Positions 8,492 to 18,216 of a stretch of DNA of 57,827 nt are shown here, piece by piece. Source of the stretch: Herbidospora galbida. Lineage in GTDB: Bacteria; Actinomycetota; Actinomycetes; Streptosporangiales; Streptosporangiaceae. The notes beneath the pieces were generated by a model. The model searched no databases and was not told where the DNA came from. It saw nothing but the letters and a program-made list of their open reading frames with translations. The DNA lies in assembly GCF_005233835.1 (NCBI RefSeq), contig NZ_SZQA01000042.1, positions 1 through 57,827 on the forward strand, in the 5' to 3' direction. A program made the translations under genes and the position numbers. Each line of letters opens with the position of its first letter. The stretch's first letter is position 1.

Positions 8492-9409
8492 TCAGGCGGT
8501 CGTGCTCCGCGTCTGGGGCTCTGCTGGTGCGCGCCGGCCGGCCGCGATCGCGCACGCGGCGCGCACGAGGGCGGCGACGGCCGGTGAGCGGGCGTCCTGG
8601 GGCCACGCGATGACCAATGTGCAGTTCGGCAGGTCGCCGACCGGCCGGTAGGCGACCCCGGGGCGCGGGTTGCGCCGGGCGACCGAGGCCGGCGCGAAGA
8701 ACACGACGCTGCCCGTTTCGACGAGGTTGAAGATCTCCGACAAGTTGGAGGCCGGCCTTGCCTCCCCGGGCCGGCGCGGCGCGGCGCGGCCCGCGTCGAC
8801 CCGGCCCGCGTCGGCCGGCGCACCGTTGGGGAGGATCCGGCCGGCCAGATCCGCCAGGCACAACCGGGACCTGGCGGCCAGCGGGTCGGTGGCGGCCATG
8901 GCGACCAGGACCGGCTCGGTGATCAGCGGCTCGGTGTCCAGCCCCCGGTCGTCCATGGGAGAGAGCACGAGTGCCACGTCGGCCAGGCCGTCGCGCAGTG
9001 CCCCGGGCTGATCGCCGAACCCTCCGAGGATCAGTTCGGGGGGCAGGGCGGCGGGGTCGGTGCGGTAGGCGTCCAGGATCTGCGGCAGCAGGCCGCCGTC
9101 GATGTCGGCCTTGAGTGCGATGCGCAGCCGGGGCGAGGCGCTGCCCGCGTGCCGAGCACGCTGAGCGGCGGCGGTGATCGCCTCCAGGGCGGTTCCGGCG
9201 TCGCGCAGCAGGACCTCTCCGGCGCCGGTGAGCCGCACCTGCCGGGTGGTCCGCTCGAACAGCGTCACGCCGAGCTGCCGTTCCAGCTCCCGGATCGCGC
9301 GGGACAGCGGGGGCTGGGCCATCCCCAGCCGGGCGGCGGCGCGCCCGAAGTGCAGTTCCTCCGCGACCGCGACGAAGTAGCGGAGCTGCCGCACCTCCAG
9401 ATCATTCAT
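8492..9409 (-). CDS. LysR-family transcriptional regulator
   Basis: A 305-residue LysR protein. The N-terminal winged helix is typical: LRYFVAVAEELHFGRAAARL, AQPPLSRAIRELERQLG and LFERTTRQVRLTGAG (residues 8-60). The rest is the two-lobed periplasmic-binding-like effector domain. ATG 9409 (MNDLEVRQL) fits the family start. It is divergent from an NmrA-like NAD(P)-binding protein with 123 bases between, so that gene is its probable target; effector not predictable. Confidence 0.9.
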   Translation of the reverse strand: MNDLEVRQLRYFVAVAEELHFGRAAARLGMAQPPLSRAIRELERQLGVTLFERTTRQVRLTGAGEVLLRDAGTALEAITAAAQRARHAGSASPRLRIALKADIDGGLLPQILDAYRTDPAALPPELILGGFGDQPGALRDGLADVALVLSPMDDRGLDTEPLITEPVLVAMAATDPLAARSRLCLADLAGRILPNGAPADAGRVDAGRAAPRRPGEARPASNLSEIFNLVETGSVVFFAPASVARRNPRPGVAYRPVGDLPNCTLVIAWPQDARSPAVAALVRAACAIAAGRRAPAEPQTRSTTA

Positions 9410-9434
9410 ATCCCCAGGGTATCGATCGCGACCA

Positions 9435-9450
9435 AGGTGATCCTTCACCT
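9435..9450. promoter_or_regulatory. Inverted repeat between LysR and NmrA-like genes
   Basis: AGGTGA-TCCT-TCACCT is a 6-base perfect inverted repeat with a 4-base spacer in the divergent promoter region, placed where a LysR-type recognition site would be expected. It does not follow the T-N11-A consensus closely, so this is a candidate only. Confidence 0.4.
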
Positions 9451-9532
9451 GCGACGTCGCTCCGGGTTCACTCGAAGGCGACCGCCCGGCGCCCCTGAGG
9501 TGCGCCGTCGACCGCAACGCATGGAGACACTC

Positions 9533-10444
9533 ATGATCGTCATCACTACGCCGACCGGTGACGTCGGCCGGCAGGTCCTGGACCGCGTCCTGGACGGCGG
9601 TGAGCCGGTCCGGGTGATCGTCCGCGACCCCTCCCGCCTCCCGGAGCACGTGCGCACGCGGGTCGAGGTGGTGGAGGGCTCCCACGCCGACGCGGACACG
9701 ATCGCGAAGGCACTGGTGGGCGCCGACCGGTTGTTCTGGCTCGTGCCCCCGGCCGGTTTCCGTGACGCCGGCCCCGCCAGGCGCCACTACCTGGACTTCA
9801 CCCGGGCCGCGGCCCGGGAGGCCGCGAGCCGGGGCGTACGGATGGTGCACGTCACCTCCCTGGGCCACGGCTACCAGGACGAGGCCGGACTCCTGTCGGC
9901 CGCGCTCGACATGGACGAGCTGATCGCGGGCACCGGCGTGCGGTACCGGGCCCTGGCGCTGCCGTTCTTCATGGAGAACCTGCTCGGTCAGGCCCGCCCG
10001 ATCGCAGAGCAGGGCGTGTTCTCCATGGCGAACACCGCCGACCAGCCGCTCCTGACCGTCGCCACCCGCGACGTGGCCGCCACGGCGGCGGCGCTCCTGC
10101 TGGACGCCGCCTGGAGCGGACAGGCCCGCGTTCCACTGGTCGGCCCCGACAACCTGACCCCCGACGCCATGGCCGAGATCGTCTCCGCGACCCTGGGCCG
10201 CACGGTCCGCTACCGGCAGGTCTCGCTCGCGGACTTCCGGGCCCGCATGGTGCGGCGCGGCGCGAGCCCGGCGCTGGCCCAGGACATGGCCGACATGGTC
10301 GACGCGCAGAACAACGGAATCTACGACGCCGAACCCCGCGACCCGGCCTCCGCCACCGCCACCGGTTTCCGCCAGTGGTGCCAGGACGTCCTGCGGGGAC
10401 ACGTCTATGCGGCGAACAGCAGCATCAGGCCCGTCACCGTGTAG
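9533..10444 (+). CDS. NmrA-like NAD(P)-binding protein
   Basis: A 303-residue atypical short-chain dehydrogenase of the NmrA/azoreductase-like group. The Rossmann motif TTPTGDVGRQVL opens the protein and VTSLGHG follows beta-5; there is no YxxxK catalytic pair. Members sense or reduce quinone-like compounds or act as redox sensors. ATG 9533 is preceded by GGAGAC at good spacing; ATG 9521 is an alternative. Divergent LysR suggests induction by a small aromatic or redox-active compound. The last 40 bases overlap the convergent membrane protein gene. Confidence 0.83.
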   Translation: MIVITTPTGDVGRQVLDRVLDGGEPVRVIVRDPSRLPEHVRTRVEVVEGSHADADTIAKALVGADRLFWLVPPAGFRDAGPARRHYLDFTRAAAREAASRGVRMVHVTSLGHGYQDEAGLLSAALDMDELIAGTGVRYRALALPFFMENLLGQARPIAEQGVFSMANTADQPLLTVATRDVAATAAALLLDAAWSGQARVPLVGPDNLTPDAMAEIVSATLGRTVRYRQVSLADFRARMVRRGASPALAQDMADMVDAQNNGIYDAEPRDPASATATGFRQWCQDVLRGHVYAANSSIRPVTV

Positions 10445-11688
10445 ACGACCATCAGGACCAGCAGGGGCACCTGGCCCGCCACGGCCGTGCGCCGGGGGAA
10501 CAGCACCAGGGCCCGGTCGTGGGCCAGGGCGGTGCCCAGCACGTGGCCGATGACGATCAGGGTCACCTGGAGCATGGCCACGGCGGCGGGGGTCAGGAAC
10601 GCCGACTGGACGGTCCAGCCGACCGTCCCGAGCCAGTTGGCGCCGGTCATCAGGGGGTCGGAGAGCAGGGCGAGGGTGCGCTGGCCCTCGTACAGGAACA
10701 GGGTGAAGTAGTGCGCCACGATGTAGCCGACGGCGATCGGCACGATCGAGTGGGCGATCTCGCCCGACGTCCGGCCCTGCTCCCCCATGCCGCGCCGGCC
10801 GGCCAGCCGGGTCGCCAGCAGGTAGGCGCCCAGGACCAGCAGGATCACGAACAGCAGCCCGGCCGTGCCCAGCACGGGTGAGGGCAGGCTGTTCTCCTGG
10901 ACGAACCGCACCCAGACCGGCGCGTTGGAGACGCTGTCGTACATGGTCGAGCCCAGCAGGACGATGACCAGCACGACCAGGCCCGGCGCGGGCCGCAGGC
11001 CGGCCATCCCGTCGAGGGGGTTGCGCCAGACCAGCACGCCGTCGTCGCGGCGGGCGACCGGGGAGAGCCGCCCGGCCAGGTCGCTGTAGACCTCGAAGGC
11101 GTCGCCCTTGTCGAACCAGCGCACGCCGTACACGAACCCGCCGGCGAGCATGGCGAGGGCGTACAGACCGAGCCAGCCGCCGATGACCGGCAGGGTCACG
11201 CGCCCGGGGGCGACCAGTTCCAGCCAGACGAAGGCGAACAGCCCGGCGGCGGCCGGCCAGTAGCCGAGCCGCTCGGGCAGCGGCCGGACCGAGCGCTCGC
11301 CCCGGACCAGCAGCACGACGGTCCGCAGCGGGTTGAACAGCCGCCACACGCCGCCGAACACCAGCGACAGCGGCACCAGCCCCACCCAGAACAGGACGTA
11401 GACCACCCCGGCCGTCGGGTTGTCGGCGTCGTCGGGGCCGAAGAAGCCGATCAGGAAGTACGCCGTGACGACCAGGCCGACCGCCCGCCACACCCACGCC
11501 GGCACCCGCCACTGCAGGAACCTCGGCAGCGGGCGGGCGTCGTCGAGGCCGAGGCCGAGCCGGGGCTCCCGCCACAGGAACCCCAGCGCGGCGAACGACA
11601 CCACGAGGCAGATGATCGCGCCGGCCAGGGCGGCGGAGAACGGGATGGGCAGGTCCTGACGGCCGCCCACGCCGTGAGCCAGCAGCAT
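10405..11688 (-). CDS. Polytopic membrane protein, last gene of ebo/copper operon
   Basis: A 427-residue integral membrane protein with about ten hydrophobic segments (for example AALAGAIICLVVSFAAL near the N-terminus and LLVLMVVYTVTGLMLLF at the end). Several histidines sit inside predicted membrane spans (IAHSIVPI, YIVAHYF, VIGHVLG), as in metal- or haem-handling membrane proteins. I do not recognise a named family. It starts (ATG 11688) one base inside the stop codon of the cupredoxin-like lipoprotein gene, so the two are translationally coupled. A membrane partner or electron/metal conduit for the exported copper-type proteins is plausible inference. Confidence 0.78.
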   Translation of the reverse strand: MLLAHGVGGRQDLPIPFSAALAGAIICLVVSFAALGFLWREPRLGLGLDDARPLPRFLQWRVPAWVWRAVGLVVTAYFLIGFFGPDDADNPTAGVVYVLFWVGLVPLSLVFGGVWRLFNPLRTVVLLVRGERSVRPLPERLGYWPAAAGLFAFVWLELVAPGRVTLPVIGGWLGLYALAMLAGGFVYGVRWFDKGDAFEVYSDLAGRLSPVARRDDGVLVWRNPLDGMAGLRPAPGLVVLVIVLLGSTMYDSVSNAPVWVRFVQENSLPSPVLGTAGLLFVILLVLGAYLLATRLAGRRGMGEQGRTSGEIAHSIVPIAVGYIVAHYFTLFLYEGQRTLALLSDPLMTGANWLGTVGWTVQSAFLTPAAVAMLQVTLIVIGHVLGTALAHDRALVLFPRRTAVAGQVPLLVLMVVYTVTGLMLLFAA

Positions 11689-12032
11689 CAGCTCACCACG
11701 AGCTGGAAGAGCTGGAGGTCCTGGTCGTGCGTCTCCACCTCGAACAGCCCGGTCGTGTCGGCCAGGAACGAGATGACCGAGGGGTGGTTCGGCAGCAGCG
11801 TCGCGGCCTTGTCGTAGCCGTGGACGTGCGCCTCGTCGGCGACGTCGCTGGTCACGGTGATCTTGACGCCCTGGTTGAGGCGGACCTCGATCCGGCCCGG
11901 CGGCGGGGTGACCTTCTTGCCGGAGATCGAGATCGTGATCTCCTTGATCGGGCCGACCGCGGCGGCCGGGCCCCCGGTGGCGCAGCCCGTCAGGGCCATG
12001 ACCGCCACGAGCAGCGCGGCAACGTGTCTCAT
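11688..12032 (-). CDS. Cupredoxin-like lipoprotein
   Basis: A 114-residue lipoprotein. The lipobox LTGC gives the lipidated cysteine C17 after a short hydrophobic segment. The body is a small beta-sandwich pattern with DEAHVHGYD and, near the end, GLFEVETHDQDLQLFQL, as in cupredoxin-like domains whose His residues bind copper; the classical Cys ligand is not evident, so metal binding is uncertain. ATG 12032 is preceded by GGAGAA. It lies 10 bases after the CopC-like gene and overlaps the next membrane protein gene by one base. Confidence 0.8.
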   Translation of the reverse strand: MRHVAALLVAVMALTGCATGGPAAAVGPIKEITISISGKKVTPPPGRIEVRLNQGVKITVTSDVADEAHVHGYDKAATLLPNHPSVISFLADTTGLFEVETHDQDLQLFQLVVS

Positions 12033-12042
12033 CGGTTCTCCA

Positions 12043-12867
12043 CTAACGTTTCTTCGCGCCGACCTTGCCGCCGGCTTTGCCGGCGCCGCCCGATCTCGCA
12101 CTCTTGCCAGGATTGCCGGGCTTGCCGGGCTTCTTGGTGTTCTTCGCCGGTGGACGTCGCATCGCCCGCGCCAGCAGCACGACCACGCCCGCGCCCAGCA
12201 CGACCGGGATCAGCCAGACCAGCGGGCTGTCGTCGCCCGTGTCGGGCGCCGCCACCGGCGACGGGGCCACGCTGGGCGCGGCCGTCGTCACGGTCTGGGT
12301 GTCGGTGGTCGGCAGGGTCACCGGCTGGCTGTCCTGCGAGTGGGCCGCCTCGATCGCGGCGAGCAGGCCGGGGTCGGGGCCGCCGGTCGGCTCGGTCCAG
12401 TCCGCGGGGGCCTTGGTGGGCTTGCCCGCGTAGGTGAACTCGAGCTTGCCCTTGACCTCCTCGCCGTCGCTGGCGATCGACAGGTACTCGACCGTGTACT
12501 CGCCGACCTTGGGCCAGTACGCCACGGGGAGCTCGACCGAATAACCCTCGTGGTAGAGGCGGGGCTCCCACTTGCCGTCGATCAGGAACAGCTCCGTGAC
12601 CGGCTCGTCGAGGCGCTTGGTCGCGCCGGTGAGCCACTGCCGCTCGACGCGCTCGCCGCCGGGGCCGGTCACGGTGAAGTGGGCGTTGCGGGGCGGCGCC
12701 TCGGTGAACCAGAGCGTCAGGGTCTGGCGGGCCTCGGCGAGGGTGCCGCCCTTCTCCGGGTCTGACTCGACGAGCTGGCCGTGGGCGAACGCCGGGCCCT
12801 CCAGGAGGACCGTCGTCGTGCCCAGGCAGAGCACCGCGATCAGCAACCGGGCCAGCCATCTCGTCAT
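12043..12867 (-). CDS. CopC-domain exported protein with C-terminal anchor
   Basis: A 274-residue protein. Residues 1-28 are a signal peptide ending PAFA, so the mature protein begins with H29, the N-terminal histidine that binds Cu(II) in CopC proteins (HGQLVESDPEKGG). The usual later ligand motif DGH reads D134-G-E136 here, so the copper site is altered. The CopC/YobA domain spans ~29-150; a Pro/Thr-rich linker, one membrane span (about 218-240) and a Lys/Gly-rich cytoplasmic tail follow. It overlaps the upstream EboE gene by ATGA and is followed by a cupredoxin-like lipoprotein. Confidence 0.87.
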   Translation of the reverse strand: MTRWLARLLIAVLCLGTTTVLLEGPAFAHGQLVESDPEKGGTLAEARQTLTLWFTEAPPRNAHFTVTGPGGERVERQWLTGATKRLDEPVTELFLIDGKWEPRLYHEGYSVELPVAYWPKVGEYTVEYLSIASDGEEVKGKLEFTYAGKPTKAPADWTEPTGGPDPGLLAAIEAAHSQDSQPVTLPTTDTQTVTTAAPSVAPSPVAAPDTGDDSPLVWLIPVVLGAGVVVLLARAMRRPPAKNTKKPGKPGNPGKSARSGGAGKAGGKVGAKKR

Positions 12868-14015
12868 CGGGACACGTCCTCCAGTCCGAGCGCGACCAGG
12901 CGGTCGCGCGTCCAGGCGAGCTCGGCGGCGAGGCCCGCCACCAGGCCCGCGTCTCCCTGCGGGCGGCGGTCCTCGGGGAGGACCTGCCAGGTGTAGGTCT
13001 CGACCTCGACGTGGTCGGTCAGCGCCCGCTCCCCGCCGAAGAGGGCTTCGAGGGTGCTGTTCAGCACGCCGCTCGTGCTCGCCAGCGGCGGCTCGGGGTC
13101 GGCGTGCAGGGGCAGGTGGAAGTGCACCCGCCAGGCGTCCTCCCCGGGCAGGCCGGCGAGCGCCTCGTCGAGGTCGTCGCACGAGCCGCCGCCGCGCTCC
13201 CGCGTCTGGTGCAGGAACCGCTCCTCGTGGAAGGCGGCCAGCTCCTCCTTGGCGGAGGCGGGGTCGTCGACGTGCAGCGCGCACGAGGCCTGGGTCTTCA
13301 CGACCGGCAGCCCCGCCGTCTCCAGCGAGGCCAGCGCCTCGACCGGGTCCTCGAACTGCACCGCGAGGTGGCAGACGTCGAGGCAGACGCCGAGCCAGTC
13401 GTGGTCGAGCGCGGCGAACTCCTCGCACGCCTGCCCGATCGTCTCCACGACGCAGCCGGGCTCGGGTTCGAGCGCGACTCTGACCGTCCGGCCGCTGGAG
13501 GCCGCCAGCTTGGACAGGCCCTCGGACAGCTCGCCCAGCCGGAGGCGGGCCTGGCCGGCCATGGCGGCGTCCCACGGCGTCCGCCACGCCAGCGGCAGCG
13601 TCGACACGCTGCCCCGCGCGGCGTCGTCGGGCAGCAGCCCGGCCAGCACCGAGGCGCAGTCGAGCGTGTAGCGCAGCCGGTCGTGCGTGGTCCAGTCGGG
13701 GACGTACACCTTGCGCTTGACCACCGGATCGTGGAAGCCCCGGTAGGGGAACGCGTTGAGCGTCACCACCTCCAGGCCGCGGGCGGCCAGCTCGCGGCGC
13801 AGGCGCACGACCTGGACGGGGTCCTCGACCAGAGCGGTCGCGACGTCGCGCGCCAGCCACAGGCCGAGGCCCAGGCGGTCGACGCCGAGAGCCTCCCGGA
13901 CCGGCTCGCCGAAGCGGGCGAGCTGGCCCAGGACACCCTCCAGGCTTTCGGCGGGATGGACGTTGGTGCAGTACGCGACGTGCACCGTCGACCCGTCGGG
14001 ATGGCGGAGCCGCAT
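12864..14015 (-). CDS. eboE: EboE-like TIM-barrel protein (xylose-isomerase fold)
   Basis: A 383-residue sugar-phosphate-isomerase-like TIM barrel matching the metabolite-traffic protein EboE. Recognisable blocks are YCTNVHPAESLEGVL at the N-terminus, NAFPYRGFHDPVVK (about residue 100), ALEPEPGCVVET and the metal-site-like CLDVCHLAVQFE. In Nostoc punctiforme the ebo genes are needed to move a scytonemin precursor to the periplasm; the chemistry of EboE is unknown. Start ATG 14015 is one base after the EboB stop; its own stop overlaps the CopC-like start. The assignment rests on motif memory and on its EboA/EboB neighbours. Confidence 0.8.
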   Translation of the reverse strand: MRLRHPDGSTVHVAYCTNVHPAESLEGVLGQLARFGEPVREALGVDRLGLGLWLARDVATALVEDPVQVVRLRRELAARGLEVVTLNAFPYRGFHDPVVKRKVYVPDWTTHDRLRYTLDCASVLAGLLPDDAARGSVSTLPLAWRTPWDAAMAGQARLRLGELSEGLSKLAASSGRTVRVALEPEPGCVVETIGQACEEFAALDHDWLGVCLDVCHLAVQFEDPVEALASLETAGLPVVKTQASCALHVDDPASAKEELAAFHEERFLHQTRERGGGSCDDLDEALAGLPGEDAWRVHFHLPLHADPEPPLASTSGVLNSTLEALFGGERALTDHVEVETYTWQVLPEDRRPQGDAGLVAGLAAELAWTRDRLVALGLEDVSR

Positions 14016-14016
14016 G

Positions 14017-14874
14017 TCAGGCGTCCTTGCGCACGCCGCGCAGCACCGAGTTGCCCTCGAACGTCTCGTCGGTCTTCAGGTCTTCCAGGTCGAGGCGGCC
14101 CGACTGGGCGTAGAACTCGACCGGGTTGCGCCACAGGACCTTGTCGACGTCGTCGGCGGTGAACCCGGCGGCCAGCATCGCGTCGCCGGTCTTGCGGGTC
14201 TTCAGCGGGTCGCTGCGGCCCCAGTCGGCGGCCGAGTTGACCAGCATCCGGTCGGTGCCGAACTCCTGGAGGATGCGGACCATGCGGTCCTCGTCCATCT
14301 TGGTGTCGGGGTAGATCGAGAACGCGGCCCAGCTGCCCGACTCGACGACCATCTTCACGGTCATCTCGTTGAGGTGGTCGACCACGACCATGCCGGGGGC
14401 GATGCCCGACTCGCGCACGACGTCCAGGGTCCGCTTGGTGCCGGCGGCCTTGTCGCGGTGGGGGGTGTGGACCATGATCGGCAGCTCGTGCTCCTTCGCC
14501 AAGTCGAGCTGACGCGTGAAGGCCTCGTCCTCCTCCTTGGTCATCGAGTCGTAGCCGACCTCGCCGACCGCGACCACGCCGTCCTTGGCGAGGTAGCGCG
14601 GCAGCTCGTCGAGGACGTCCACGCAGCGGGGGTCGTTGGCCTCTTTCGGGTTCAGCGCGATCGTGCAGTGGTGGCGGATGCCGAACTGCGCGGCACGGAA
14701 GGGCTCCCAGCCCACGAGGGAGTCGAAGTAGTCGAGGAACGAGCGCACGCCGGTGCGCGGCTGGCCCAGCCAGAAGGCGGGCTCGACCAGGGCCCGGACG
14801 CCGGCCTCGTACATGGCCTCGTAGTCGTCCGTGGTCCGCGACGTCATGTGGATGTGCGGGTCGAAGATACGCAC
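14017..14874 (-). CDS. eboB: TatD-family metal-dependent hydrolase, EboB-like
   Basis: A 285-residue amidohydrolase-fold protein. The metal ligands are visible: FDPHIHMTS at the N-terminus, GEVGYD for the bridging acid, HTPHRDK, VDHLNE and a late NSAADWG aspartate. This is the TatD pattern. GTG 14874 gives the natural N-terminus VRIFDPHIH and lies two bases after the EboA stop. Within the ebo cluster the TatD-like EboB is a standard member; its substrate is not known. Confidence 0.87.
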   Translation of the reverse strand: MRIFDPHIHMTSRTTDDYEAMYEAGVRALVEPAFWLGQPRTGVRSFLDYFDSLVGWEPFRAAQFGIRHHCTIALNPKEANDPRCVDVLDELPRYLAKDGVVAVGEVGYDSMTKEEDEAFTRQLDLAKEHELPIMVHTPHRDKAAGTKRTLDVVRESGIAPGMVVVDHLNEMTVKMVVESGSWAAFSIYPDTKMDEDRMVRILQEFGTDRMLVNSAADWGRSDPLKTRKTGDAMLAAGFTADDVDKVLWRNPVEFYAQSGRLDLEDLKTDETFEGNSVLRGVRKDA

Positions 14875-14876
14875 GG

Positions 14877-15479
14877 CTAGGACTCCTGGTCTACGAGGTT
14901 GAGCACGAGGTGCACGTCGTCGGGCACCACGCGGCCGGCCGCTTCGCGTTCCTTGGCGAAGTCGGCCAGCATGCGGGCGAGTTCGGCGTCGGCGCGGTCG
15001 GCCAGGCCCGCGACGGCCGCCAGGGGGACGCCGACGAACACGCACTTGAGCACGCCGTGCCGCCAGCCCTCGTCGTCGAGGTGGGCGGCGGCGTAGGGAC
15101 CCATGGCGGCGGCCACGAGCCGGGTGTCGTTGGTGCGCAGGGCGTCGCGGACCAGCGGCAGCCCCTCGTCACCGAGGCCGAGGATCGGCAGGGCGCGCAG
15201 CACGGCCCGCTTCTCGGCGTTGTCCCCGTCCGTGTACGCCCTCGACACCGCCGCCGCCTTGGGCCGCGGCAGCGCGTCGAGCAGCAGGGCGCGGGCGGCG
15301 TCGTCGGCCGTCCAGCCCGTCAGGCTCTCCAGGGCGCCCCGGCCGACCTTCCGCCCGGCGGCGGGGAAGAGCACGGCCAGCTTCGCGGGGTCGTCCGCCA
15401 CCTGGGAGCGCGCCGTGGAGAGCCACTCCTCCGCCTCGGGGGTGAGGTCGAGCGCGGCGCGCAGGTCGTCGGGCGTCAT
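14877..15479 (-). CDS. eboA: EboA-domain protein
   Basis: A 200-residue, mostly helical protein with the EboA landmarks: LTPEAEEWLSTA near the start, RKVGRGAL, GWTADDAARALLL, then LRTNDTRLVAAAMGPYAA and LKCVFVGVPLAAV. No catalytic site is recognised; EboA is an essential but biochemically uncharacterised part of ebo clusters. Its ATG overlaps the inositol-phosphate synthase stop (ATGA), making it the second gene of the operon. Confidence 0.85.
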   Translation of the reverse strand: MTPDDLRAALDLTPEAEEWLSTARSQVADDPAKLAVLFPAAGRKVGRGALESLTGWTADDAARALLLDALPRPKAAAVSRAYTDGDNAEKRAVLRALPILGLGDEGLPLVRDALRTNDTRLVAAAMGPYAAAHLDDEGWRHGVLKCVFVGVPLAAVAGLADRADAELARMLADFAKEREAAGRVVPDDVHLVLNLVDQES

Positions 15480-16624
15480 CGGACCGCCCACTCTCGGAGC
15501 GCGTCGTACTGGGCGAGCAACCGGTGCTCGTCGGTGCCGACCGGGTCCTTGAAGAAGAAGCCGAGGGAGGTCAGCGCGCCCGACTCGCCCTGCTCGTGCG
15601 CCCACGACGTGAAGCGGGCCAGGTCGAGCACGAGCGGCGCGGCCAGCGCCGAGTCGCAGCCCTGCCAGGTGAACTGCATCGTCATCCGGACGCCGAGGAA
15701 ACCCTCGAACAGGATGTGGTCCCAGGCGGTCTTCCAGTCGCCCAGGTCAGGAACGTAGTCAATGTGGACCTCGCCCCCGGCGGAGTACCCGAGCATCTTC
15801 GCCATGCCCCGCTGCTTGGAGGCGGTCTTGCTGGCCGCGGCGGCCGGGTCGGCCAGGGTCGCCCCGTCGCCGCCGCCCAGCAGGTTGGTGCCCGACCACG
15901 ACAGGACGCGCAGCGCCCGCGTGGTGAACATCGGCGCGAGCGCCGACCGCATGAGCGTCTCACCGGTCTTGCCGTCACTGCCGGCGTACGGGACGCCGCG
16001 CGACTTCGCCAGCTCGTCGAGGGCCGGCAGGCGGGCGCCGGTCGACGGGGTGAAGTCGACGAAGGCGCAGCCGGCCTCGAAGGCGGCGTAGGCGTACACG
16101 GAACTGGGCGGCAGCACGTAGGCGTCGGTCTCCATGGCCTTCGTGAGCGCCGCGAGGTCGTCGTGCTCGGGACGGTAGGCGCTGGGCGGCTCCGTCGACG
16201 AGACGTTGATCACGACGACCCGGTCGAGGCCGTGCCGCTCGCGGAAGCCCGCGATGTCGGCGGCCAGCCGCTCCACCACCTGGAGCTGCGGCACCGCGTC
16301 CTCGACGTGCACGCCGTCGCGGATCTCCGCCTCGACCGCCGTCACCTCCGGCAGCACCGCCGCCGCGATGTCCCGCGGGACCACTCCCGAGGTGGTCAAC
16401 TGCTCCACGCGCTTGGCGAGGGGCGTGGCCACGATGTCGTGACCGCCGAACACGAGCTCCCCGAATCCGGCCAACGGAAGCTGTGCGAAGTCCGGCAGTT
16501 CCGAGACCAGGCCGACCGGGGCGGCGAGCCCTAACCGCACCGCGGTGGCGCCCGCCATCGCGGTGGTCGCCACCGACCCACGAACCCCAACGAACCAGAC
16601 GCCTGTCCGACTCTGCTTCACCAT
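15476..16624 (-). CDS. Inositol-3-phosphate synthase family protein, first gene of ebo operon
   Basis: A 382-residue protein of the myo-inositol-1-phosphate synthase family. The NAD-binding start VWFVGVRGSVATT, the VINVSSTEPP block, the conserved GSDGKTGETLM and the WSGTNLLGGGDG block are all present. The family converts glucose 6-phosphate to inositol 3-phosphate, though this operon-borne copy may make or sense a related cyclised sugar; cyanobacterial ebo clusters carry a sugar-phosphate cyclase-like gene (EboD) in a comparable role. ATG 16624 follows AAGGGAAG. It heads seven genes with overlaps or gaps of at most 10 bases. Confidence 0.88.
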   Translation of the reverse strand: MVKQSRTGVWFVGVRGSVATTAMAGATAVRLGLAAPVGLVSELPDFAQLPLAGFGELVFGGHDIVATPLAKRVEQLTTSGVVPRDIAAAVLPEVTAVEAEIRDGVHVEDAVPQLQVVERLAADIAGFRERHGLDRVVVINVSSTEPPSAYRPEHDDLAALTKAMETDAYVLPPSSVYAYAAFEAGCAFVDFTPSTGARLPALDELAKSRGVPYAGSDGKTGETLMRSALAPMFTTRALRVLSWSGTNLLGGGDGATLADPAAAASKTASKQRGMAKMLGYSAGGEVHIDYVPDLGDWKTAWDHILFEGFLGVRMTMQFTWQGCDSALAAPLVLDLARFTSWAHEQGESGALTSLGFFFKDPVGTDEHRLLAQYDALREWAVR

Positions 16625-16785: not shown

Positions 16786-16799
16786 CCGAGACGTCCATA

Positions 16800-16828
16800 T
16801 TGTTACGGTGCGGTACAGGTCGGGTCAA
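16800..16828 (-). promoter_or_regulatory. Sigma70-like promoter candidate upstream of ebo operon
   Basis: On the minus strand TTGACC (16828-16823) and TAACAA (16805-16800) are separated by 17 bases, a good housekeeping-type promoter. Transcription would start near 16793, just before the terminator-like hairpin, which would then act as an attenuator for the ebo operon. Alternatively it is fortuitous and the true promoter is nearer 16640. Confidence 0.4.
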
Positions 16829-16834
16829 TGCCGC

Positions 16835-17704
16835 CTACAGGTTCGGAGGGGGCGCGGACCCGTTGTAAAACGGGTTCTGACTGAGCCGTCGTTCAGTGAC
16901 GAGCAGCCGCACCACCCCCTCGCGGACCTGCCAGGCGTTCCAGACGGTCCACTGGTCACCGGGGGTGTCGTCGACGAAGGAGAGCCCTCCGCCGGGTCCG
17001 ATCTCGATCCGCTGGTACGTCACCCGCAGGCCCCGCCGCTCCGCCTCGGCCCTGACCTCCTTCACGGGCGCGCCGTGCCGCAGCCGCACCCCGTGGAGCG
17101 GCCCGCCGGGGCCGAGGGCCTTGTCGTAGTCGGCGTAGTCCTCCCCCGGCCGGGCGGGCCGCCCGAGGCGGATGTCGACCGAGCCGGGGAACCCCGCGGG
17201 CACCCGGACGATCATCGCGCAGCCGGGGGCGGCGGGCGCGCAGCCCTTCGGTTCGAGATCGGCGCTCAGCACCACCCCGCCGTAGGCGAACTCCCCGCCG
17301 ATCTCGTCGGGGCGGTCGAAGGTGCCGCCGATCATCATGCCGAGCGACGTGCCCGCCGACAGCGGCGAGACCGGCAGCGGCCGGATCCGCACGTCCAGCC
17401 CGACGGCCCGGAACGCCTCGGTGAAGCGCTCATGGTCGGCGAAGGGGTCGAGGACGCGGGCGACGTACTGCTCGCCCTCCAGGTGGATCTCGACGGCCGC
17501 GTTGGCGTAGGAGGTCACGAACTGCGGCGGCGTCAGCGTCACGACGAGCCCGGCGGCGACGGCCACCAGGACGGGACGCAGGAACCGGCGCCGCCGGACG
17601 GGCGCGGACGTGCTCATCACGTGGGCCAGCAGGGCTCGGGCGCCCGGCGCGCCGGGGTCGCCGCCCTTCCTGGACGGGTCGAGGGTCGCGAGGAGGTCGG
17701 TCAT
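16835..17704 (-). CDS. Single-pass membrane protein paired with ECF sigma factor
   Basis: A 289-residue protein with a ~45-residue cytoplasmic N-terminus, one membrane span (FLRPVLVAVAAGLVVTL) and a ~220-residue exported domain of unknown fold containing a Cys pair (KGCAPAAPGCAM). Its ATG overlaps the sigma factor stop (ATGA). This layout suggests an anti-sigma or sigma-partner protein, although no zinc-binding anti-sigma motif (HxxxCxxC) is visible. Function is inferred from position only. Confidence 0.7.
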   Translation of the reverse strand: MTDLLATLDPSRKGGDPGAPGARALLAHVMSTSAPVRRRRFLRPVLVAVAAGLVVTLTPPQFVTSYANAAVEIHLEGEQYVARVLDPFADHERFTEAFRAVGLDVRIRPLPVSPLSAGTSLGMMIGGTFDRPDEIGGEFAYGGVVLSADLEPKGCAPAAPGCAMIVRVPAGFPGSVDIRLGRPARPGEDYADYDKALGPGGPLHGVRLRHGAPVKEVRAEAERRGLRVTYQRIEIGPGGGLSFVDDTPGDQWTVWNAWQVREGVVRLLVTERRLSQNPFYNGSAPPPNL

Positions 17705-18216
17705 CGGGTCTCTCCCAGGGGTTCCAGGGTGAAAGAGGTGGGCACGCCGTTGGCGGCCAGCGCCTTCGCGAAGCGGCGGCGGGCGCGGTGGAGACGGACG
17801 CGGACGTTGTTGCGCGTGATGCCGAGCGTCACGGCGATCTCGTCGTGGCCGAGACCCTCCCAGGCGACCAGGGCGAGCAGTTCGCGGTCGCCGTCGGGGA
17901 GCGCGCGGAAGGTCTGCCCGATCACGCTCATCTCGACGCCGGGGGTCTCGGCGTACAAGTCGGCCATCTCGGCGTCGAGCAGCGCGTCGCGGCGTCCGCT
18001 GCGGCGATGCTGGGACAGGACGCGGCGGGCGACGGCGTAGAGCCAGAGGACCGCCTCGTCGCCGCGTGGGATCTTCTCGCGTTTTCGCCAGGCCACGGCG
18101 TAGGTGTCCGCGACGACGTCGGCGGCGTCCTGTGGGGACGCGCAACGGCGCACCGCGTAGCGGGTGAGCCGTTCGTAGGTGTCGCGGAAGACGGCCTCGA
18201 AGGTTTCGGGGGTCAC
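17701..18216 (-). CDS. ECF-type RNA polymerase sigma factor
   Basis: A 171-residue group IV sigma factor. Region 2 is FRDTYERLTRYAVRRC to DVVADTYAVAWRKRE and region 4 is LALVAWEGLGHDEIAVTLGI followed by TRNNVRVRLHRARRR. GTG 18216 is preceded by AAGGGGG. It is coupled by ATGA to a membrane protein gene and preceded 30 bases upstream by a small EF-hand gene. Target promoters are not predictable from this window. Confidence 0.9.
   Translation of the reverse strand: MTPETFEAVFRDTYERLTRYAVRRCASPQDAADVVADTYAVAWRKREKIPRGDEAVLWLYAVARRVLSQHRRSGRRDALLDAEMADLYAETPGVEMSVIGQTFRALPDGDRELLALVAWEGLGHDEIAVTLGITRNNVRVRLHRARRRFAKALAANGVPTSFTLEPLGETR

Follow-up and report, generated by a model that had tools for sequence, protein, structure and literature searches.

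Ebo genes share an operon with a copper-type gene trio in Herbidospora and may serve the same pathway

What might the ebo genes, which deletion work in Nostoc indicates are needed for metabolite export (PMC6282210), have to do with copper? The question is raised by a stretch of 57,827 nucleotides from Herbidospora galbida (assembly GCF_005233835.1, contig NZ_SZQA01000042.1, positions 1 to 57,827 of the forward strand), here called the window. Seven minus-strand genes run in it from 16624 to 10405, in the order INO1-EboA-EboB-EboE-CopC-cupredoxin-like lipoprotein-membrane protein, the last three being referred to below as the trio. On the basis of sequence comparison, we consider the odds about even that this operon represents half of an INO1-type actinobacterial ebo pathway, and that the copper-type trio joined to it in Herbidospora acts in that pathway as well. 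The features are as follows.

15476..16624, minus strand: INO1-type myo-inositol-phosphate synthase (PF07994, PF01658, 1u1i alignment)
14877..15479, minus strand: EboA-domain protein (NF035938)
14017..14874, minus strand: EboB, TatD-like metal-dependent hydrolase, GTG start (PF01026)
12864..14015, minus strand: EboE TIM-barrel protein (NF035939)
12043..12867, minus strand: CopC-domain exported protein, 4-bp overlap with EboE (PF04234, hydrophobic ends)
11688..12032, minus strand: small cupredoxin-like lipoprotein (lipobox, HxH and ExH residues)
10405..11688, minus strand: membrane protein of an unnamed family, about 10 spans (hydropathy, invariant residues)
16799..16828, minus strand: sigma-70-like promoter site 5' of INO1, on weak evidence (matches 9 of 12 consensus bases, against 0.1 in shuffles)

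Successive genes are separated by -4, 2, 1, -4, 10 and -1 bp. The six Herbidospora species whose EboE is closest to that of the window (93-97% identity) were compared, and all six named loci (L118-L123) keep the seven genes with spacing identical within 2 bp. The seven-gene minus-strand operon with gaps of at most 10 bp, as first described from the sequence of the window, is thus borne out. Five further Herbidospora genomes of the family sample, in which EboE and the membrane protein lie 2.3-2.6 kb apart, probably overlap with the named loci (same assemblies). The ratio of nonsynonymous to synonymous substitution rates within the genus ranges from 0.08 to 0.43 across the seven genes, with CopC highest (three comparisons per gene). 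The operon is under purifying selection, and its spacing is maintained, within Herbidospora.

Distribution of the trio and of ebo

A trio-type CopC was detected in 26 of 150 genomes of the family Streptosporangiaceae at E <= 1e-49. The next matches lie at approximately 1e-9, and three such weak matches were dropped from the trio count. The same 26 genomes carry a membrane protein at least 66% identical to that of the window; this limit was chosen after the data had been inspected, and the subsequent CopC search arrived at an identical set. EboE is present in all 26, versus 7 of the 27 genomes that have other members of the membrane-protein family only. Leaving Herbidospora aside, a membrane protein of any type occurs in 27 of 50 EboE genomes versus 20 of 94 others, an excess that is due to the trio type because so few of the non-trio genomes have EboE.

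We mapped both traits onto an rpoB tree covering 110 of the 150 genomes (21 of the 26 with the trio and 47 of the 56 with EboE; four partial rows were kept). Several family genomes, G426, G495, G501 and G541 for example, have two rpoB-type genes. The core clade of this tree comprises 47 genomes, with 21 containing both trio and ebo, 6 ebo only, 20 neither and none the trio only. Pagel's test of correlated evolution between trio and EboE gave a likelihood ratio (LR) of 28.8 over the 110 tips (p 8.7e-6) and of 25.6 over 46 core tips (p 3.7e-5). The result survives dropping Herbidospora (p 9e-5), the partial rpoB rows, or the largest core subclade lacking both traits, with p ranging from 9e-5 to 3e-4. 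In simulations on the core clade, where the trio loss rate was fixed at 0.9 (the fitted value being near zero) and a run was discarded if a state was represented by fewer than 5 tips, none of the 114 kept runs reached the observed LR (maximum 13.5). Two control traits were tested against EboE, and neither was correlated with it (non-trio members of the membrane-protein family, p 0.17; an EboE paralogue, p 0.41).

In the 20 trio genomes outside Herbidospora, taking one EboE per genome, EboE lies on another contig in 17 and approximately 180 kb or more away in 3. At that distance, joint loss of both modules by one deletion is unlikely in the three same-contig genomes. These data agree with the functional link between trio and ebo genes that a preliminary description of the window had proposed. 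It also set conservation of their adjacency across actinobacteria as a test, and by this test the adjacency is limited to one genus. The actinobacterial loci surveyed are the best 80 of 574 matches, 74 of them from outside Herbidospora and 52 of these with 9 kb of sequence on both sides; the trio adjoins ebo in 0 of the 52. Similarly, among 33 family genomes, six have the membrane protein within 12 kb of EboE, and every one of these is a Herbidospora. Which of the modules moved could not be read from the synteny around the trio in nine relatives. We found no published account of a link between trio and ebo in a literature search of limited scope.

The one-genus adjacency fits the main rival explanation, namely that a chance fusion in the Herbidospora ancestor placed an unrelated copper trio behind half an ebo cluster, and that the shared distribution reflects lifestyle or clade history. 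Several observations weigh on that side and against a common pathway. The trio is missing from 30 of the 56 family genomes with EboE, and ebo therefore does not need it. In a sample of the phylum, the membrane-protein family as a whole is independent of EboE (5 of 19 versus 74 of 377, p 0.55), and on some plasmids its members are neighbours of other copper genes. In 17 of the trio genomes the modules are on separate contigs and may lie at any distance from each other. Only 6 phylogenetically independent pairs are available, 4-5 of which point the same way and 0 the opposite way (p 0.06-0.125). Furthermore, the trio genomes belong to one clade, and both distributions could therefore be driven by some hidden trait that its members have in common. 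Chance fusion does not readily account for the presence of EboE in every trio genome, nor for a correlation that persists without Herbidospora and is absent from both controls; in addition, the genome sizes of trio and non-trio clade members overlap, as judged by eye. We therefore regard it as unlikely, while placing it ahead of the other alternatives.

Alternatively, trio and ebo might be grouped for regulation only, sharing a stress signal and a promoter with no biochemical link. The only promoter-like site found between 10000 and 17000 is the one upstream of INO1, with none inside the operon, and a gene for an extracytoplasmic function (ECF) sigma factor lies further upstream at 17701-18216 on the same strand, with another reading frame between. 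In the other trio genomes, however, the modules are apart and the distribution is still shared, making this explanation very improbable. The one-way pattern, in which the trio always occurs with ebo and ebo often without the trio, suggests an accessory arm acting on or with the ebo product, and the Herbidospora operon looks like a fusion of genes that were already working together.

INO1 and the actinobacterial ebo cluster

Profile searches agree with the initial naming of INO1, EboA, EboB, EboE and CopC, in the case of EboA through a domain model and of CopC through PF04234. INO1 matches PF07994 (3e-52) and PF01658 (2e-33), and aligns with the Archaeoglobus enzyme 1u1i at 8.8e-75. The equivalents of 1u1i Lys274, Lys278, Lys306, Lys367, Asp261 and Asp332, which we take to be the catalytic positions of inositol-phosphate synthase, are kept. 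EboA scores 173 bits with the domain model NF035938 (cut-off 50) and 85 bits with the stricter family model NF035937, below its cut-off of 320. EboB matches the TatD family PF01026 (2e-16) and is 69-81% identical to EboB of other named ebo loci. EboE scores 424 bits with NF035939 (cut-off 250), and a search of PDB sequences with it gave matches only above E 0.2. The EboE paralogue used as a control above is a 309-residue protein on contig C76 (L009, 1288-2217) that reaches 188 bits with the EboE model, under the cut-off; it is present in 64 of the 150 family genomes, with neighbours that by eye resemble MutY and ClpC.

When the 52 non-Herbidospora loci were searched by tblastn, INO1, EboC, EboA, EboB and EboF were each found in 50 and an isomerase of AP_endonuc_2 type in 49, the commonest gene order being INO1-EboC-isomerase-EboA-EboB-EboE-EboF. 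Three loci are incomplete: Sphaerisporangium album L124 (EboC, EboE and EboF only), Umezawaea endophytica L147 (EboE only) and Umezawaea tangerina L126 (INO1-EboA-EboB-EboE). Given its presence in 50 of the 52, INO1 belongs regularly to the ebo clusters of actinobacteria, and the idea that it is a chance neighbour can be discarded.

EboD has been proposed to be the cyclitol-forming enzyme (PMC5133447, PMC6282210). The H. galbida genome encodes a single PF01761 (AroB-type) protein, on contig C88, and with this protein as query no sugar-phosphate cyclase was found in the ebo loci at E 1e-3, in a search that had no EboD as positive control. INO1 probably takes the place of EboD in actinobacterial ebo clusters. 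The word "inositol" is absent from the main text of PMC6282210, PMC5133447 and PMC9235831. The apparent replacement of EboD by an inositol-phosphate synthase lends support to the idea of a cyclitol and points to a substrate that can be tested.

Genes of GSDH type lie near 43 of the 52 loci (drawn from L124-L197), and of ThuA type near 38. Three large proteins encoded beside ebo genes were scanned. All carry GSDH together with PKD and CBM6 domains; ThuA is added in two, and a 3-keto-disaccharide hydrolase domain in one. GSDH/ThuA-type genes sit between EboB and EboE in five Planotetraspora loci. These neighbours hint that ebo is linked to the oxidation of sugars or cyclitols.

A second ebo half in the same genome

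The absence of EboC noted in the preliminary description is true of the window operon only, as EboC is encoded on contig C55 of the same genome. H. galbida has seven UbiA matches; the C55 protein fits the EboC of the clusters at 51-53% identity (up to 230 bits), and the other six have best scores below 39 bits. C55 EboC scores 322 bits with the SCO3242 family model NF045897 (cut-off 260), and 120 bits with the EboC model NF035940, failing its cut-off of 250. It begins a minus-strand run (L238 coordinates) of EboC at 7858-7004, the isomerase at 7007-6198 and EboF at 6187-4889, the latter of phosphodiesterase type (PF01663, 3.7e-55) and not found in the window operon. Since the genes on C55 are precisely those that the window operon lacks, the ebo pathway is split over the two contigs. 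EboC occurs in 53 of the 56 family genomes with EboE above the cut-off and in 0 of the 94 others, which argues that the halves belong together. The two genes lie within 12 kb of each other in 46 of these 53 genomes and on separate contigs in 7, consisting of six Herbidospora and G509.

Quick trees of joined ebo proteins were built from 41 of the 53 complete loci together with Herbidospora. They place the C55 half as sister to a single lineage of the family, at a Shimodaira-Hasegawa-like approximate likelihood-ratio test (SH-aLRT) value of 100. The window half has no firm placement, and forcing it into the lineage of the C55 half was rejected by the approximately unbiased (AU) test at p 0.024, a modest value for a group named after the identities were known. 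EboE alone groups with Sphaerisporangium album (SH-aLRT 95). The two halves thus appear to differ in ancestry, judging from these trees. Two other genomes, G492 and G514, contain two ebo sets each, although in both genomes one of the sets had no match for one gene. In a simple scenario, Herbidospora descends from an ancestor with two such sets and retained complementary halves of them.

Copper-type features of the trio

The CopC protein matches PF04234 with 51 bits (cut-off 23) and fails the NCBIfam equivalog NF033814 (29 bits, cut-off 95). It has a signal peptide and a C-terminal hydrophobic anchor; an AHG motif follows the signal peptide, and His29 is invariant in 14 of 14 aligned rows. A PDB sequence search with CopC gave no match. 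The family genome G404 has a second trio-type CopC away from the trio (C11:35607-36389). In G434, a small genome with no EboE over the cut-off, a weak match resembling CopC (C1:1410778-1411437) contains two TGA codons in frame and is possibly a decaying remnant of the trio.

For the lipoprotein, no Pfam family was found at E <= 1, NCBIfam matches were all above E 0.04 and PDB sequence matches only above E 0.2. His69, His71 and Glu100 are invariant in 50 of 50 rows and His102 is present in 45. Blue copper proteins (cupredoxins) bind copper in a type 1 site formed by Cys-His-His-Met. The window lipoprotein does not provide such a site, as its sole cysteine is the lipobox Cys17, leaving HxH and ExH motifs with no Cys ligand. 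Two homologues have weak matches to nitrosocyanin (20 bits) and NosZ (14.5 bits). The label cupredoxin-like therefore rests on the lipobox, the conserved residues and these weak homologue matches. A low-confidence AlphaFold model of the lipoprotein consists mostly of strands, at a predicted local distance difference test (pLDDT) score of 42; that of the membrane protein scores 34 (each built from 7 Herbidospora sequences at least 92% identical to that of the window).

Hydropathy predicts about 10 spans for the membrane protein, with conserved histidines within or at the edge of spans, in keeping with the ten-span protein with intramembrane histidines first described. All 61 aligned rows share His5, His326, His382, His390, Met413 and Asp251. 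Neither CopD nor any other Pfam family was matched at E <= 1, NCBIfam gave no match and PDB none at E <= 5; a scan of viral contigs found no relatives. The label 'fenitrothion hydrolase' for this family could not be confirmed from the literature, and the plasmid records are annotated as hypothetical protein or not annotated. An NmrA-family gene on the plus strand (9401-10444) is convergent with the membrane protein gene, the two overlapping by 40 bp at their 3' ends.

To place the trio in context, 40 membrane-protein loci (L198-L237) hand-picked from phylum and family search matches were inspected. The lipoprotein gene is directly upstream on the same strand in 36, on the opposite strand in 1, and not shown in 3. 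CopC accompanies the membrane protein in 7 of the 40, all of them close relatives, and one further weak CopC match lies on the opposite strand. INO1, EboA, EboB and EboE had no match in any of the 40. Part of the flanking genes was scanned in the 7 CopC-bearing loci, and none of the 10 trio-adjacent genes covered encodes a copper enzyme. As these neighbours also differ between loci, the trio looks self-contained.

Homologues of the membrane protein occur in 15 named plasmid regions, two of them unannotated; the other 13 were viewed. Five of these have a copper gene within approximately 5 kb of the homologue. Copper membrane monooxygenase subunits are encoded nearby on plasmids of Mycobacterium dioxanotrophicus and M. 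chubuense NBB4, a multicopper oxidase in Mycobacterium gallinarum and in Halobaculum, and PCu(A)C in Sulfitobacter. The remaining 8 regions have no clear copper gene, bar a galactose-oxidase-type gene 3 kb away in Pseudonocardia. Together with the invariant His, Met, Glu and Asp residues, the plasmid neighbours make it reasonable, from sequence and context, to read the trio as handling copper, and to this extent the copper flavour originally attributed to it stands. In M. dioxanotrophicus and M. chubuense NBB4 (L252, L253), membrane protein and lipoprotein form a candidate copper-delivery pair for the copper membrane monooxygenases.

Proposed role of the operon

Both the apparent INO1 substitution and the link to a copper trio narrow the possible chemistry of ebo. 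In the scheme that we propose, INO1 would make a cyclitol phosphate from glucose-6-phosphate, the role put forward for EboD elsewhere, and the TIM-barrel and hydrolase proteins would modify it. EboC would then prenylate the modified cyclitol in the membrane and EboF release phosphate, such that the ebo product or its cargo ends up exposed outside. The trio would serve as an accessory arm on the outside, binding copper and moving it through the membrane or along it. As a defined module tied to ebo by its distribution and by the operon of one genus, it is a candidate outside partner of ebo.

The model initially put forward for this locus was that the exported metabolite meets a copper-dependent oxidation or a copper-binding step outside the membrane. 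In the form considered here, a copper enzyme loaded by the trio would oxidise or mature the ebo product there. The copper oxygenase and oxidase genes near membrane-protein homologues on the three mycobacterial plasmids and the one haloarchaeal plasmid are consistent with this, as is the position of the Nostoc ebo genes ahead of a periplasmic oxidative dimerisation (PMC6282210). The operon itself encodes no recognisable oxidase, however, and none was seen among the 10 trio-adjacent genes scanned in the 7 other CopC-bearing loci, such that we consider the model rather doubtful. We consider acquisition or delivery of copper involving the ebo product the likelier of the two.

8-Hydroxyquinoline-2-carboxylic acid binds metals. 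Its preference by an EboC homologue in vitro (PMC9235831) fits a metal-binding ebo product. A more far-reaching proposal, to which we attach just a small probability, is that ebo of the core Streptosporangiaceae makes an exported copper-binding cyclitol-isoprenoid with the trio as its dedicated copper receiver, ebo thus being a copper-acquisition system.

Comparison with known systems

The Herbidospora genes can be compared with several known systems. EboA, EboB and EboE of the window are shared with the EboA-F cluster of Nostoc punctiforme and Bacteroidetes, with an EboC-like protein and EboF on C55 and all of these clustered in relatives. Herbidospora differs in that EboD is apparently replaced by INO1, an extra isomerase is present, EboC is nearer to the SCO3242 family, the cluster is in two parts and a copper trio is joined to one of them.

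SCO3242 and SCO3243 of S. coelicolor are annotated as putative transferase and myo-inositol phosphate synthase and tabled under the CDA cluster (PMC3610822). C55 EboC passes the SCO3242 model, and in the ebo loci of actinobacteria the gene next to EboC is usually INO1, mirroring this pair; in Herbidospora, by contrast, EboC and INO1 are on different contigs.

For the trio, the arrangement of an exported CopC domain beside a multi-span membrane protein with conserved histidines is shared with CopC/CopD and YcnJ. These are copper uptake proteins. The Herbidospora membrane protein departs from them in its lack of a match to CopD or any other Pfam family, and the cupredoxin-like lipoprotein is an addition. 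The pair on the M. dioxanotrophicus and M. chubuense NBB4 plasmids resembles the trio in that its membrane protein is a homologue (40% identity) and the lipoprotein gene directly precedes it; unlike in Herbidospora, neither CopC nor ebo adjoins it, and subunits of methane/ammonia-monooxygenase type are encoded within approximately 5 kb.

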